From an uncultured Holophagaceae bacterium (GTDB taxonomy: Bacteria > Acidobacteriota > Holophagae > Holophagales > Holophagaceae), in NCBI GenBank assembly GCA_903839205.1, contig CAIMBM010000271.1:1-38542 (forward strand): a stretch of DNA of 38,542 nucleotides. The letters run 5' to 3'. The position numbers were made by a program, and so were the translations under genes. This document shows, piece after piece, positions 12,007-18,368 of this stretch (positions within the stretch are counted from its first letter, which is position 1; each line of letters starts with the position of its first letter). The notes under the pieces were generated by a model. That model ran no database searches and was not told the DNA's origin. It saw only the letters and a list, made by a program, of their open reading frames with translations.

Positions 12007-13353
12007 CTACTTCAAGTCCCGGAGCCACGCGGCCACCGGCGATAGGTCCGCCAGGGGCGTGCTGTCGCCGTAGGCGCTCATGGCATCAGCACCGGACAGC
12101 CCGGTCCTGGCGCGAGGCTCCCGCTTGAAGAGGTGGTTCGCCTCTGGAACCTGGATCAGGGTCCCCTTGAAAGCGGGGGGCAGGGTCCCGGGCTCCCAGG
12201 TCTGGATGTCGCGGTCGCCCCAGACCATGGCGCAGGGCACGGCCAGGCGCAGGGCCATGGTCCATGGATCCAGGTCCAGCAGATCCCGGACGAAGCCCCG
12301 GCTTTCCGGGCGGGCCAGACCCTGCGCCAGGGCGGCGATGCCCGGTGCCACGCCCGCTGGCGTTCCGGGCAGGTCCTGGCCCGTGCGGATGGCCCCCAGG
12401 ACCGATTCGAGGTAGGCAAGGTTGAGCCTGGAGACCTCCGCCGGCGCCTTCGCTGCCTCCAGCCTGGCCTGGACCTGGACCGGGATGAGCCGGCCCATGC
12501 TCATGCCTGGCATGGCCAGCAGCAGCAGGGCATTGGCTTCACCGGCCGCCAGCAGCGACAGCAGCGCCCCCTCGCTATGTCCCACGAGCAGCAGCTTCTT
12601 CCCCTTCGCCTCAGGCAGGGCGCGGACAGCCCTCAGGGCCGCCTTGATGTCACCCACCTGAGCGTCCAGCGAGATGTCGAGTCCCGGGTCCCTGGACCCA
12701 ATGAACCGCTTGTCGTAGCGCAGCGAGCCGAGACCCTGCTCCTTCAGCCAAGCAGCCAGGTCCCGCCCTCCATGGCTGGGCATGGGTATGAGGGGGCTGG
12801 ACCAGTCCCGGTCCGTGGGTCCCGAGCCCGCCACCATCACGGCAAAATAGGGATGGGCGCCACCGGCGAGCACCGTCGCGTTCAATGGAAAAGCATTGAA
12901 CCCCGGGAAACGGACCCTTCGCTCGCCTGCACGGAGGGGCTGGGGGCCGCTGGCCTCTTCAGCCTTCAGCGCCTCCACGGGTGCCGGGCCTGTGCGCCGG
13001 AGCGTCAGGGGCAACTGGGCGCTGCCCTGGATGAACGTGCCGCTGGCGGCGATGCCGCCTGGACCGATGGCCCCATCGAAAGCAGGATCGCCAGGAATGC
13101 CCGGCAGGGTGAACTTGAGCCGGCCGGCCCCCGCGCTGATCTTGGTGAGCGCCAGGTTCTTCACGCCTTGCGCAGGGATGGAGATAACGCCCTTCCAGTC
13201 ATCCCCCTTCACCCAAAGGTCCACGAGCAAATCGAGCTTCCCCTTGGGCAGTTGGAGGGAGCCTTCCCAATGACCTGCCTGCGGCACTTCGGGTGGGGAT
13301 TGCGCAAGGCTGGGCGAAAGCAGGCAGGGAAGCAGCAGCAGGAAGCGTTTCAT
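12007..13353 (-). CDS. Secreted alpha/beta hydrolase (serine aminopeptidase/esterase-like)
   Basis: I place the start at the ATG at 13353, where MKRFLLLLPCLLSPSLAQS forms a clear signal peptide and GGAG lies upstream. The ORF track adds 30 unlikely residues. The 448-residue protein has an N-terminal beta-rich region (about 25-130: GHWEGSLQLPKGKLDLLVDLWVKGDDWKGVISIPAQG). The hydrolase domain follows with PYFAVMVAGSGPTDRDWSSP, the nucleophile elbow GHSEGAL, an acid residue in MVWGDRDIQT and the histidine in PEANHLFKRE. This architecture is typical of S33/DUF3887-like periplasmic hydrolases; the substrate is unknown. It converges tail to tail with the small cysteine protein with no gap, and is divergent from the marR operon. 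Confidence 0.85.
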   Translation of the reverse strand: MKRFLLLLPCLLSPSLAQSPPEVPQAGHWEGSLQLPKGKLDLLVDLWVKGDDWKGVISIPAQGVKNLALTKISAGAGRLKFTLPGIPGDPAFDGAIGPGGIAASGTFIQGSAQLPLTLRRTGPAPVEALKAEEASGPQPLRAGERRVRFPGFNAFPLNATVLAGGAHPYFAVMVAGSGPTDRDWSSPLIPMPSHGGRDLAAWLKEQGLGSLRYDKRFIGSRDPGLDISLDAQVGDIKAALRAVRALPEAKGKKLLLVGHSEGALLSLLAAGEANALLLLAMPGMSMGRLIPVQVQARLEAAKAPAEVSRLNLAYLESVLGAIRTGQDLPGTPAGVAPGIAALAQGLARPESRGFVRDLLDLDPWTMALRLAVPCAMVWGDRDIQTWEPGTLPPAFKGTLIQVPEANHLFKREPRARTGLSGADAMSAYGDSTPLADLSPVAAWLRDLK

Positions 13354-13451: not shown

Positions 13452-13480
13452 TTGACGTACCGGGCCGACTGCCCTAACAT
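13452..13480 (+). promoter_or_regulatory. Sigma-70 promoter of the marR-tolC-emrA(-emrB) operon
   Basis: TTGACG (13452-13457) and TAACAT (13475-13480) are separated by 17 bp, a near-consensus housekeeping promoter. It lies upstream of marR and directly before two palindromic operator-like sites, so the transcription start should fall inside the first one. Confidence 0.75.
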
Positions 13481-13481
13481 T

Positions 13482-13510
13482 ACTGCCTTGGCAGTGATTG
13501 CTTAGGCATT
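13482..13510. promoter_or_regulatory. Paired MarR-type operator sites
   Basis: Site 1 is ACTGCCTTGGCAGT (13482-13495), with perfect 6-bp arms around TT. Site 2 is ATTGCTTAGGCATT (13497-13510), an imperfect copy matching site 1 at 10 of 14 positions. They are offset by 15 bp and cover the expected transcription start and early leader of the marR operon. Binding by the adjacent MarR protein, giving autorepression, is inferred from position and symmetry. Confidence 0.65.
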
Positions 13511-13528
13511 AAATGCGAGGATGAGGTC

Positions 13529-14056
13529 GTGGGCACCGATTCAAGGGGGACAGAGCCGCTGTACACCCCCGAAAACTACAATCCGGAGGAGAGCATCGGG
13601 CGCCTCATCGCCGATGTCTCCGGGCGGCTGTTGTCCGCCTTTGACGATGAGATGACCGGCATGGGCATTACCGGCGCGCAGTGGGTGATCCTCATGCGCA
13701 TCGCCAATGGCTGCGGTTCCACGGCCGCCGAGCTCTGCCGCTTCAGCCGCTACGACACCGGCTCGATGACCCGCATGCTGGATCGCCTGGAGGAAAAGGG
13801 GCTGATCCGGCGCGCCCGGAGCGACAAGGACCGCCGGGTCATGTGCCTGGAACTCACCGAAACGGGCCGGGGCTTGTACCCCCTCATGCCGCCCGTGGCC
13901 ATGAAGGTGCTCAACGCGCACCTCCGGGGTTTCACGCGGGAGGAACTGGACCTGTTCAAGGGCTTCCTGAACCGCATGCGGATCAACAGCGAGCAGGCCG
14001 CCCTGGATCCCGCCAGCCCCGTCCAAAACCCGTCGAGATCCGGCGCCGCCGTATGA
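13529..14056 (+). CDS. MarR-family transcriptional repressor of the efflux operon
   Basis: The 175-residue protein starts at GTG 13529; the nearby upstream ATGs are out of frame or stop at once. It is a winged helix-turn-helix regulator. ITGAQWVILMRIANGCGSTAAELCRFSRYDTGSMTRMLDRLEEKGLIRRARSDKDRRVMCLELTETG covers the helix-turn-helix and wing (about residues 48-115), including the DxRxxxLxLT-type wing. MarR repressors act as dimers on palindromes and release DNA when they bind small aromatic or toxic compounds. It is the first gene of a tolC-emrA-emrB operon, overlapping the next reading frame at ATGA, and palindromes lie at its promoter. It therefore probably controls the pump and itself. The C-terminal tail (ALDPASPVQNPSRSGAAV) looks disordered. 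Confidence 0.9.
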   Translation: MGTDSRGTEPLYTPENYNPEESIGRLIADVSGRLLSAFDDEMTGMGITGAQWVILMRIANGCGSTAAELCRFSRYDTGSMTRMLDRLEEKGLIRRARSDKDRRVMCLELTETGRGLYPLMPPVAMKVLNAHLRGFTREELDLFKGFLNRMRINSEQAALDPASPVQNPSRSGAAV

Positions 14057-14094
14057 CTCGACCAGAAGCTGCTTCAAAACGGATGGAGGATTTC

Positions 14095-15474
14095 ATGTCC
14101 CGCCTCACCCCCCGGGCACCAGGCACCACCCGCGTTCCCTGCGGGGTTCTTGTGCTCTGCCTGACCCTGCTGGGATCGACGGCGGCCTGGTCCCAGGTGC
14201 CTTCAGCGCCTGGCGAAAGGCCCTCCACGGTGGTCCGGCTCACCCTTGCGCAGGCGATCCGGACGGCCCTCGGCGAGAACCCCCGGGTGCACCAGTCCCT
14301 GCTGGCCATCGCCGAAAGCGGGGATGACCGCCGGGCCGCCGCCGCGGCGCTCCTGCCCACGGTGGCGGCCCAGGCCTATGGCCAGCGCAACAAGTACAAC
14401 CTGGAAGCCCAGATGGGGATGTCCGTGCCCGGCTTCCCGTCCGTGGTGGGGCCCTTCAACTGGAGCACGGCGGGATTCGAGGCACAGGTCTCCCTCTTCG
14501 ACCTGAGCCTCTGGAAGAAGTGGCGCGCCTCCCAGAACGCCGAGGACTCGGCCCGCGCCCAGGGCCGGGCCGTGCGCGAGGAGATCACCGCCCTGGTCGT
14601 GGGGCAGTACTTCCACGCCCTCCGCGCCATCGCGTCGGTCAAGGCCGGCGAGTCGCGGGTGGACCTGGCGGAGGCCCTGGCCAAGCTGGCGGAGAACCAG
14701 CAGAAGCAGGGGGTGGGCACCAGGCTCGACACCCTGCGCTCCCAGCTCCAGCTCCAGACCGAGCGCCAGCGCCTCATCCAGGCCCAGACCCAGCGGACCA
14801 CGGCCTTTGCGGGCCTCGTCCGCCTGCTGGACCTGCAGCCCGGCACCGCCGTCGAGCTGACGGATTCCCTGGCCACGCCTGCGCTCCCGGTCGACACCTT
14901 CCAGGAGGCCTACCGGTCCGGACTCGCCCAGCGCCCCGAGCTCGCGGCGCTGGATGCCCGGGAGAAGGCCGCCGTGAACCTGCGCGAGGCCGCCCAGGGC
15001 CTGCGCCTGCCCACGCTCGTCGCCACGGGCAGCTACGGTTCCACGGCCCTCCAGTCCATGTCCGGGACCAACACCTACCAGGTCTCCCTGGGCCTCCGCG
15101 TGCCGCTGTTCACGGGCGGCCTCATCTCCTCCCAGGTCGCGCGCGCCACGGCCGAGCAGAGCCGGGTGCAGGAGGCCCGGCGGGAGGTCCGCGCCCAGGT
15201 CGGCTACGAGGTCCAGGTGGCCCAGGCGGAGCTGGAGGCCGCCGTCCACGAGGTGGAAGTGTCGAACCTCGCCGTGGCGCTTTCGACGGAGGCCCTCACG
15301 CAGTCCCAGCACCGTTTCGAAGCCGGCGTGAGCAACAACATCGAACTGATCAATGCCCAGGATGAACTGGCCCGGGCCAATGACAACCAGATCAGCGCCC
15401 TCTACCGTCTGAACCAGTCCCGTGCGGACCTGGCCCGGGCCACGGGGCAGCTCGAATCCTACTTTGCACGCTGA
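14095..15474 (+). CDS. TolC-family outer-membrane efflux channel
   Basis: I choose the ATG at 14095 because GGAGGA sits four bases upstream and the product then starts with a signal peptide (MSRLTPRAPGTTRVPCGVLVLCLTLLGSTAAWSQ). An in-frame ATG at 14053 overlapping the marR stop is an alternative. The 459-residue protein has the duplicated OEP architecture. LTLAQAIRTALGENPRVHQSLLAI opens repeat one, and long helical coils carry A-x-x-x-L-x-x-N/Q spacing (EALAKLAENQQKQGVGTRLDTLRSQLQLQTERQRL). The second repeat closes with ALTQSQHRFEAGVSNNIELINAQDELARANDNQISALYRLNQSRADLARATGQL. Such proteins form trimeric channels through the outer membrane and periplasm. It is encoded between its repressor and the membrane fusion protein, and is the exit duct for the EmrAB-like pump. 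Confidence 0.93.
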   Translation: MSRLTPRAPGTTRVPCGVLVLCLTLLGSTAAWSQVPSAPGERPSTVVRLTLAQAIRTALGENPRVHQSLLAIAESGDDRRAAAAALLPTVAAQAYGQRNKYNLEAQMGMSVPGFPSVVGPFNWSTAGFEAQVSLFDLSLWKKWRASQNAEDSARAQGRAVREEITALVVGQYFHALRAIASVKAGESRVDLAEALAKLAENQQKQGVGTRLDTLRSQLQLQTERQRLIQAQTQRTTAFAGLVRLLDLQPGTAVELTDSLATPALPVDTFQEAYRSGLAQRPELAALDAREKAAVNLREAAQGLRLPTLVATGSYGSTALQSMSGTNTYQVSLGLRVPLFTGGLISSQVARATAEQSRVQEARREVRAQVGYEVQVAQAELEAAVHEVEVSNLAVALSTEALTQSQHRFEAGVSNNIELINAQDELARANDNQISALYRLNQSRADLARATGQLESYFAR

Positions 15475-15485
15475 TGGAGACCCCG

Positions 15486-16601
15486 ATGACTGAAGAAGCT
15501 TCCAACCCGTCAGCCCCTTCCGCCTCGGGGGCGCCCGAGGCCAACGGGTCCCGGGCCATGCTCGTCCTGAAGATCGGCATGCCCCTCGTGCTGCTCCTCG
15601 CCGCCGGGATGTGGTTCTACTCCCGCAACCGCGTGAGCACCGACGACGCCCAGGTGGACGGCCACCTCGTGCCCGTCTCCTGCCGGGTCTACGGCACCGT
15701 GGACAAGGTGCTGGTGGAGGACAACCAGGCCGTGAAGACCGGGGATCCCCTCGTCGTGGTGGATCCCCGCGACATCCAGGCCCGGCTCGATCAGGCCAGG
15801 GGCGCCCTGGCCCAGGCCCGCGCCCAGGTCGAAGGCGCCAAGGCCGACCTGGAACGGGCCCAGGTGGCCTACCAGCAGGCCCGCAGCTCGGATCTGGACA
15901 CCGCCAAGGCCCGGCTCGACGCCAAGAAGGCCAGCCTGGACAAGGCGACCTCCGACCTCCAGCGCATGAAGCCCCTGGCAGCCCGCGAGGAGATCTCGGC
16001 CCAGCAGTTCGACGGCTTCAAGACCCAGGCCGAGGTCGCCGACGGCGAATGGCGGGAGGCCCAGCAGCACCTGGCCTCGCTGCAGCGCGAAGCCGACATC
16101 CGCAAGGTGGCCGTGGGGATCGCCGAGGCCCGGCTGGCCTCGGCCCAGGCCCAGGTGGACCAGGCCCGCGCCACCCAGGAAGGCTTCGACCTCCAGCTGG
16201 GCTACACCAGGATCCTCGCGCCCGTGGACGGCGTCGTGACCCGCAAGTTCGTCGAGGCGGGCCAGACCATCCAGCCCGGCCAGGGGCTGCTCACCTTGAT
16301 CCCACTTCACCAGAGCTGGGTCACCGCCAACTTCAAGGAGACCCAGCTCGCCCGCATGAAGCCCGGCCAGGAGGCGGAGATCAAGGTGGACATGAACGGC
16401 GTCGTGCTGAAGGGCCACGTGGATTCCATCGCCGGCTCCACAGGCTCCCGCATGAGCCTGCTGCCGCCTGAGAACGCCGTGGGCAACTTCGTGAAGGTCG
16501 TCCAGCGCATCCCCGTGAAGATCCGCATCGATGAGGAGGAATCCAGGAAGGTGGTCCTGCGGCCCGGCATGAACGTCGAGGCCACGGTTCTCCTGCAATG
16601 A
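15486..16601 (+). CDS. emrA: EmrA/HlyD-type membrane fusion protein
   Basis: The preferred start is ATG 15486, six bases after GGAG; METP at 15474, overlapping the tolC stop, lacks an RBS. The 371-residue protein has a short cytoplasmic tail, one membrane helix (about 26-44, VLKIGMPLVLLLAAGMWFY) and RVSTDDAQVDGHLVPVSCRVYGTVDKVLVEDNQAVKTGDPLVVVDP, the typical first biotinyl-lipoyl half. A coiled-coil hairpin spans about 80-220, rich in alanine and glutamine. The second half has GYTRILAPVDGVVTRKFVEAGQTIQPGQGLLTLIPL and a beta-barrel with TQLARMKPGQEAEIKVD. It links the inner-membrane MFS pump to the TolC channel. Its length and layout match EmrA (~390). Confidence 0.93.
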   Translation: MTEEASNPSAPSASGAPEANGSRAMLVLKIGMPLVLLLAAGMWFYSRNRVSTDDAQVDGHLVPVSCRVYGTVDKVLVEDNQAVKTGDPLVVVDPRDIQARLDQARGALAQARAQVEGAKADLERAQVAYQQARSSDLDTAKARLDAKKASLDKATSDLQRMKPLAAREEISAQQFDGFKTQAEVADGEWREAQQHLASLQREADIRKVAVGIAEARLASAQAQVDQARATQEGFDLQLGYTRILAPVDGVVTRKFVEAGQTIQPGQGLLTLIPLHQSWVTANFKETQLARMKPGQEAEIKVDMNGVVLKGHVDSIAGSTGSRMSLLPPENAVGNFVKVVQRIPVKIRIDEEESRKVVLRPGMNVEATVLLQ

Positions 16602-16609
16602 AACTGACC

Positions 16610-16750
16610 AACCACAAAGGTATTTCGACCACATAGAACACGAAGGGCGCGAAGAAAGGTACGAGGTCAGGCGTTGGAACTTCAGCAGCAGGAGTGGAAG
16701 GCATATCACCTTTTGTGTTCTTTGTGCTCTTTGAGGCTACAAAGCTTTTT
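16610..16750. repeat. Degenerate repeat element between emrA and emrB
   Basis: The 204-bp gap 16602-16805 contains no gene I can support. ACCACAAAGG and ACCACATAGAACACGAAGGGCGCGAAGAAAGG on the left face CCTTTTGTGTTCTTTGTGCTCTTTGAGGCTACAAAG on the right, an imperfect inverted repeat built of CACAAAGAACAC-like units. The stretch is much richer in A+T than its surroundings. Similar low-complexity intergenic units occur in many bacterial genomes. It may form a transcript hairpin that changes expression of emrB relative to emrA. Confidence 0.55.
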
Positions 16751-16805
16751 CTCCCCTTGCGGTGAAGAGCAAGTGCCCATTGACCTCTTCGGTCGTATGT
16801 CCTAG

Positions 16806-18368
16806 ATGAACACCCACCGCCACATCAGCCCCTGGATCATCGCGCTCACCGTGATGATCGCGACCTTCATGGAGGTCCTCGACACCAGCGTGGCGAACGT
16901 GGCCCTGCCCCACATCGCCGGCAACCTCTCGGCGACGGTGGAGGAGACCACCTGGGTGCTGACCTCGTACCTGGTGGCCAACGCCATCGTGCTGCCCCTG
17001 GGCGGCTACTTCTCCAGCCTCATCGGTCGCAAGCGCTTCTACCTCACCTGCGTGTCCATCTTCACCATCGCCTCCCTGCTCTGCGGCATCGCGCCGTCCT
17101 TGGGCTGGCTCATCTTCTTCCGGGTGCTCCAGGGCCTCGGCGGCGGCGGCCTCCAGCCCATTTCCCAGGCCATCCTGGTGGAGACCTTCCCCCACGAGAA
17201 GCGCGGCGCGGCCATGGCCGTCTATGGCATGGGCGTGGTGCTGGCGCCCATCATCGGCCCGGTGCTGGGGGGATGGATCACCGACAATTTCAGCTGGCAC
17301 TGGATCTTCCTCATCAACATCCCGGTGGGATTCCTCTCCTTCGCGCTCACCAGCGCCCTGGTCCACGATCCGCCGTCCTTCCACCGGATCTCCCTCAAGG
17401 AGGGCGCCCGCTTCGACTACCTGGGCATCGGCGTCATCACCCTGGGGCTGGCCTCCCTGGAGATCGTGCTGGACGAAGGCCAGCGCAGGGACTGGTTCAG
17501 CTCGAACCTAATCGTCTTCTTCGCCATCGCCGCGGTGGTGGCTCTGGTCTACGCCGTCTATCACGAGCTCCGGAAGGACCGGCCCATCGTGGACCTGAGG
17601 CTGCTGAAGGACCGGACTTTCGCGGTCTCCATCCTCATGCTCTTCGTCCTGGGCTTCGTGCTCTACGGCAGCCTGGCCCTCCTGCCCATCTTCCTCCAGA
17701 CCATGCTGGGCTACACGGCCCTCCTGAGCGGCTGGGTGCTCAGCCCAGGCGGCCTAGCCGTGATGGTGATGATGCCGGTGGTGGCGGGGTTGCTGAAACG
17801 GACAGATGCCCGCTGGCTCATCGGCATCGGGTTCTTCACCTGCGGCCTGGGCCTCATCCAGATGTCAGGCTTCAACCTGCAGGTGGACTTCCAGACGGCC
17901 ATGGTCTCCCGCGTGGTGCAGAGCCTGGGCTTCGCCTTCCTGTTCATTCCCATCAACGTGTCTGCATTCCAGCACATCCCGCACGAGAAGACGGCCTATG
18001 CCACGGGTCTCATGAACCTGGTCCGCAACATCGGGGGCAGCACGGGCATCGCCCTCGCCACCACCATGCTCTCCCGCCGCTCCCAGTTTCATCAGAACAA
18101 CCTCATCGGCCACCTCTCTCCGGGCGATCCCGCCTACCAGGGCTTCCTGGACCGGGCGACCCAGCTGGGTGTGCTCCGCGGGGGGCTCTCGCCGGCGGAC
18201 GCCGCCCATGTGGCCCAGGGGGTCGCCTACGGCACCGTGATCCGGCAGTCGAGCATGATGGCCTTCTCTGACACCTTCTGGTTCATGGGTGTGCTCTGCT
18301 TTGTGCTCTTCCCCCTGCTCTTCCTCATGCGGCAGAGCCGGGCCACGGAACCGGTCGCGATGGAGTGA
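16806..18368 (+). CDS. emrB: EmrB/QacA-family MFS multidrug transporter (DHA2, 14 helices)
   Basis: The 520-residue protein begins with SPWIIALTVMIATFMEVLDTSVANVALPHIAGNLSATVEETTWVLTSYLVANAIVLPLGGYFSSLIGRKRFYL. This contains the LDTSVANVALPHI signature of the DHA2 drug/H+ antiporters and the GRKR loop after helix 2. Glycine-rich GLGGGGLQPISQAIL and GPVLGGWITDNFSWHWIFLINIPVG (motif C-like) follow, and about 14 hydrophobic segments continue to MRQSRATEP. It would export toxic compounds using the proton gradient through EmrA and TolC. No ribosome binding site is evident before the ATG, and a 204-bp repeat-bearing gap separates it from emrA, unlike the tight spacing of the preceding genes. Confidence 0.93.
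   Translation: MNTHRHISPWIIALTVMIATFMEVLDTSVANVALPHIAGNLSATVEETTWVLTSYLVANAIVLPLGGYFSSLIGRKRFYLTCVSIFTIASLLCGIAPSLGWLIFFRVLQGLGGGGLQPISQAILVETFPHEKRGAAMAVYGMGVVLAPIIGPVLGGWITDNFSWHWIFLINIPVGFLSFALTSALVHDPPSFHRISLKEGARFDYLGIGVITLGLASLEIVLDEGQRRDWFSSNLIVFFAIAAVVALVYAVYHELRKDRPIVDLRLLKDRTFAVSILMLFVLGFVLYGSLALLPIFLQTMLGYTALLSGWVLSPGGLAVMVMMPVVAGLLKRTDARWLIGIGFFTCGLGLIQMSGFNLQVDFQTAMVSRVVQSLGFAFLFIPINVSAFQHIPHEKTAYATGLMNLVRNIGGSTGIALATTMLSRRSQFHQNNLIGHLSPGDPAYQGFLDRATQLGVLRGGLSPADAAHVAQGVAYGTVIRQSSMMAFSDTFWFMGVLCFVLFPLLFLMRQSRATEPVAME

Follow-up and report, generated by a model that had tools for sequence, protein, structure and literature searches.

A predicted double MarR-family operator at the promoter of a marR-tolC-emrA-emrB efflux operon in Geothrix

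Layout of the efflux locus and its promoter

In the window, by which we mean the whole 38,542-nucleotide stretch of DNA analyzed here, from an uncultured Holophagaceae bacterium, a gene for a MarR-family regulator is followed by genes for a tolC-like outer membrane protein, an emrA-like adaptor and an emrB-like pump, and a divergent alpha/beta-hydrolase-like gene lies on its other side (Table 1). As the genes for an outer membrane factor, an adaptor and a DHA2-family MFS pump are adjacent, the locus was classified as an EmrAB-TolC-type tripartite MFS efflux operon. The marR reading frame begins with GTG 13529 in the window and with ATG at the same place in relatives. The start of the tolC-like gene was placed at ATG 14095, behind a GGAGG at 14085-14089, and ATG 14053, which overlaps the marR stop codon, is also open.

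Table 1. Positions of the features of the efflux locus within the window, with the evidence for each.
Feature	Positions	Strand	Basis
Alpha/beta-hydrolase-like gene, divergent, signal-peptide-like start; regulation by the operator not implied	12007..13353	-	neighbour
Sigma-70-type promoter TTGACG-N17-TAACAT	13452..13480	+	sequence, promoter scan, TTGAC-to-site-1 distance in relatives
Operator site 1 ACTGCCTTGGCAGT, over the predicted transcription start (about 13486-13488)	13482..13495	.	proteobacterial-matrix rank 1 in window
Operator site 2 ATTGCTTAGGCATT, 15 bp from site 1	13497..13510	.	identity 0.86 (31 genomes), rank 2 in window
Likely marR ribosome-binding site GAGG	13517..13520	+	inferred from sequence, 8 nt before GTG 13529
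marR, MarR-family winged-helix regulator, 175 aa, GTG start	13529..14056	+	Pfam MarR_2 1e-14; 31 genus orthologues
tolC-like outer membrane efflux protein	14095..15474	+	Pfam OEP 4e-46
emrA-like periplasmic adaptor	15474..16601	+	NCBIfam TIGR00998 3e-72, under its curated cut-off
emrB-like DHA2-family MFS pump	16806..18368	+	NCBIfam TIGR00711 9e-143, over cut-off

Ahead of marR, the sequence TTGACG-N17-TAACAT comprises a -35 element at 13452-13457 and a -10 element at 13475-13480, separated by a 17-nt spacer. Scanning 1.8 kb for sigma-70-like sites revealed this as the only match, where 0.2 were expected, with a consensus score of 9/12 (5/6 for the -35 and 4/6 for the -10 element). The original prediction had termed the promoter near-consensus, a description that is generous for the -10 element. 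One base separates the -10 element from palindromic site 1, and one further base separates site 1 from site 2. The two sites have A.TGC.T.GGCA.T in common, their centres are offset by 15 bp, and 6/7 pairs in site 1 and 5/7 in site 2 are symmetric. The letters, coordinates, shared motif and offset of this promoter with its two tandem palindromes were all confirmed as originally described, and the regulator gene has a palindromic site overlapping its own promoter. From the usual distance between a -10 element and the start of transcription, +1 was predicted at 13487.

When all window positions were scored with a matrix trained on proteobacterial boxes alone, sites 1 and 2 ranked first and second. 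The score of site 1 was reached in none of 200 shuffled windows using a matrix from proteobacterial operators. That of site 2 alone was reached 0.59 times per shuffled window, and the significance of site 2 therefore rests on its conservation and fixed position.

Conservation and joint loss of marR and operator in Geothrix

The genus set consisted of 47 Geothrix genomes, 31 of which carry a close marR orthologue. The promoter, site 1 and site 2 at exactly 15 bp were present in all 31 marR-bearing genomes, a TTGAC begins 29-31 nt ahead of site 1 in 31/31, and the order marR-tolC-emrA-emrB is intact at each of the 23 named Geothrix loci. Mean pairwise identity among the 31 genomes was 0.80 at site 1 and reached 0.86 at site 2, compared with 0.30 in the upstream flank, 0.45 across the spacer plus -10 region, and 0.41 in the leader after site 2. 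Site 2 had been called degenerate in the original prediction; in evolutionary terms this does not hold, as TTGCTTAGGCA within it is nearly invariant across the 31 genomes and its identity exceeds that of site 1. The fully symmetric TTGCCTAGGCAA is found as site 2 in some relatives.

Comparison across the genus revealed that the operator is conserved and lost with the regulator, being present in 31/31 genomes with marR and 0/16 without it. Four of the latter (G003, G023, G030 and G045) keep tolC-emrA-emrB beside the hydrolase gene and have neither marR nor operator. Several of the 16 marR-less genomes are incomplete assemblies, in which absence weighs less than in these four, since there the whole intergenic region was read. 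This natural co-loss of marR and operator with the pump kept is a useful evolutionary control.

A genome-wide search for a regulon, as the original prediction had proposed, was carried out by sequence patterns and found none. Within the genus, the site-2 pattern was confined to 24 genomes, each with a single copy, and the tandem element is present in one copy per genome in the 25 genomes where it was detected. As site-1-like words elsewhere were no commoner than those of a reversed control, no wider regulon is claimed, and from these patterns the operator is predicted to have a single local target.

In the four marR-less relatives (loci L145-L148 of G045, G023, G003 and G030, respectively), the 121-nt leader upstream of tolC is 93-96% identical among the four. 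It was absent elsewhere in the 100 genomes searched, gave no Rfam match, folded no better than shuffles and yielded no covariation. Contigs C74 and C201 of G030 carry two emrA-emrB copies, whose EmrB products match that of the window at 87% and 92%. One copy is without marR and the other is cut at the contig end; the pair reflects two separate operons or else a mixed assembly.

The same box before proteobacterial marR homologues

A single scan of named genomes yielded 57 further MarR homologues with 41-55% identity, mostly from Rhodocyclales and Gammaproteobacteria, and the 35 homologues from Beta- and Gammaproteobacteria with emrA and/or emrB downstream were used as a test subset. A box resembling CTGCCTAGGCAG, with at least 10/12 matches, precedes the marR homologue in 32/35 of these, versus 1.1% of shuffled sequences; the three emrA/emrB-linked operons without a box at this threshold include that of Chromobacterium subtsugae. 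The 12-mer had been chosen after reading the proteobacterial sequences, and the test was therefore rerun with site 1 of the window as the query, which removes this bias. This revealed that 83% of the proteobacterial operons reach at least 11/14 matches, versus 0.9% for the null and 2.9% for a reversed control. Conservation of the palindromes in related operons, which the original prediction had made a point on which it could fail, was thus found both within Geothrix and in this proteobacterial subset. As the box extends to many Beta- and Gammaproteobacteria, the homologous regulators there could be assigned a target.

The spacing of the elements is also similar in the two phyla. The strongest offset of a second box in the proteobacterial operons is +15 (z 4.1), as in Geothrix, while others have a second box at 20-21 or a single site, and many have only a weak site 2 or lack it. 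Most Proteobacteria with a TTGAC in this region have it 28-30 nt from site 1, versus the 29-31 nt of Geothrix. Some of the proteobacterial homologues were retrieved through the recognition-helix peptide DTGSMTRM, and the sameness of recognition helices is therefore partly a matter of ascertainment. Inspection of the genes neighbouring three marR homologues without emrAB revealed no common theme.

Between Geothrix and the Proteobacteria (loci L054-L110), identity is about 50% for MarR and mostly about 31-39% for EmrA and EmrB; TolC of the same loci gave no tblastn match to the window at 1e-8. Judged by sequence, the regulator and its operator look as if they had moved between pumps. A bolder idea, which we consider rather unlikely, is that marR and the 15-bp double operator form a portable cross-phylum cassette placed on dissimilar pumps, in which the 15-bp phase would interleave dimers on opposite faces and give a response beyond that of a single site.

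Proposed regulation and alternative readings

The product of marR exceeds the curated cut-offs of two MarR-domain models, PF12802 (54.9 bits, cut-off 27) and PF01047 (53.3 bits, cut-off 24.6). It falls under the NCBIfam cut-offs for the EmrR/MprA equivalog (NF008122, 32.5 bits versus 157) and the E. coli MarR equivalog (NF008565, 46.1 bits versus 240), and for this reason is filed as neither, although it is predicted to work like both. Alignment with E. coli MarR pairs its recognition helix, DTGSMTRMLDRL, with DLGALTRMLDRL, and the residues at T72, R73, R77, R86 and R94 are identical.

We consider it very probable that the locus carries an autoregulatory MarR operator, at which dimers on both sites would block the single marR-tolC-emrA-emrB promoter until released by a ligand. 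One MarR dimer would bind site 1, across the operon's own transcription start, and a second would bind site 2, which lies 15 bp downstream and covers the initial bases of the transcript. Given this placement, bound MarR should block the binding or escape of RNA polymerase at the promoter, and a small ligand, probably hydrophobic or phenolic, would release MarR so that pump and repressor are switched on together. Binding itself, repression, ligand release and the occupancy of both sites are what we infer here; autorepression of marR-tolC-emrA-emrB is well supported by inference, and conservation in two phyla together with the co-loss of marR and operator argues for a MarR-type operator recognized by the adjacent MarR, as originally proposed. 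E. coli MarR has been crystallised on a 21-bp duplex (PMC6837509). With an offset of 15 bp, equal to about 1.4 helical turns, two footprints of 21 bp would overlap each other on nearly opposite faces of the DNA, and simultaneous interleaved binding or mutual exclusion would thus both be possible.

How the two sites might divide the work is less certain. The original prediction proposed a high- and a low-affinity site giving graded autorepression, with site 1 filled first and site 2 only at high MarR concentration, and we hold this as a tentative reading that falls somewhat short of an even chance. Lower scores for site 2 than for site 1 in 28/31 genomes, obtained with a matrix from another phylum, suggest that site 2 may be the weaker of the two, as does its state in many proteobacterial operons, and its imperfect form is itself conserved, as expected if weakness were selected. 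Within Geothrix, however, conservation is higher at site 2 than at site 1. Matrix scores derived from homologues of about 50% identity are no sure guide to affinity for the MarR of the window, and the layout is also compatible with cooperative binding or mutual exclusion.

An autoregulatory operator could also act as a two-way switch controlling the divergent hydrolase gene, which is retained near marR in 21/23 named Geothrix loci. This appears improbable, as the hydrolase gene and marR lie anywhere from about 200 to more than 1000 bases apart and the scan found no minus-strand sigma-70-like promoter. Less probable still is binding by a regulator other than the adjacent MarR: the genome does encode further MarR-family proteins, yet across the 47 genus genomes neither operator nor marR is found without the other, the two are lost jointly while the pump stays, and the same box precedes homologous marR genes in another phylum. 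The reading of the conserved block as an RNA leader element, a hairpin or attenuator instead of a protein-binding DNA site, was rejected as most unlikely: the block does lie partly inside the predicted 5' untranslated region, but the left half of site 1 precedes the predicted start, most changes in the palindromes affect one side and many break a pair (C-A, G-T, A-C) with no clear compensation, predicted folding is no better than for shuffles (z -0.10), and there is no Rfam match.

Comparison with known systems places the proposed autoregulatory operator among familiar arrangements. One of these is E. coli marO of the marRAB operon, where a MarR-family autorepressor likewise has two sites near a sigma-70 promoter: the mar promoter holds TTGCCTGGGCAA and TTGCCAGGGCAA, with the core TGCC-NN-GGCA of the window sites, so that the TGCC and GGCA half-sites and the 2-bp centre agree, as do the recognition helices. 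Unlike the window, marO has TTGCC..GGCAA as its outer bases and sites about 35 bp apart versus 15, and its operon encodes the activator MarA and not a pump. The emrR-emrC-emrA-emrB loci of Chromobacterium violaceum and Stenotrophomonas maltophilia share the gene order of the window, in which a MarR-family gene is followed by those for an outer membrane protein, an EmrA and an EmrB. The EmrR of C. violaceum binds the emrR and emrCAB promoter regions directly, and salicylate relieves repression (PMC6249546); a difference is that this EmrR has other direct targets, and the box is missing from a Chromobacterium relative (L098). E. coli EmrR (MprA) is also a MarR-family autorepressor of an EmrAB pump, but it uses a single site, CTGTCGTTACTATATCGGCTG (PMC13053672), which is unrelated in sequence to the window sites, and the emrRAB operon is without tolC. 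P. aeruginosa MexR, a further MarR-family repressor, has two neighbouring palindromic sites (PI and PII) overlapping efflux-operon promoters, and adjacent double sites have been called common in MarR operators (PMC9892617). The mexR-mexAB-oprM system differs from the window in its GTTGA half-sites 5 bp apart, its RND pump and its divergent promoters.

Searching the literature for the exact sequence of the box brought up no paper on a bacterial regulator that deals with it. Efflux operons with double MarR operators are already known (marO, mexR), and the window is an ordinary example of a known switch. To our knowledge, few operators have been worked out in Geothrix (Acidobacteriota), and with the two sites an efflux operon of this genus gains a concrete operator that can be tested.

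Further down the operon, the gap between emrA and emrB measures 204 nt in the window (16602-16805), versus about 25 in the closest relative (L031). The element in this gap was ruled out as a repeat, being present in a single copy in the genome; within the gap lies an imperfect inverted repeat, CACATAGAACACGAAGG / TTTTGTGTTCTTTGTGC.
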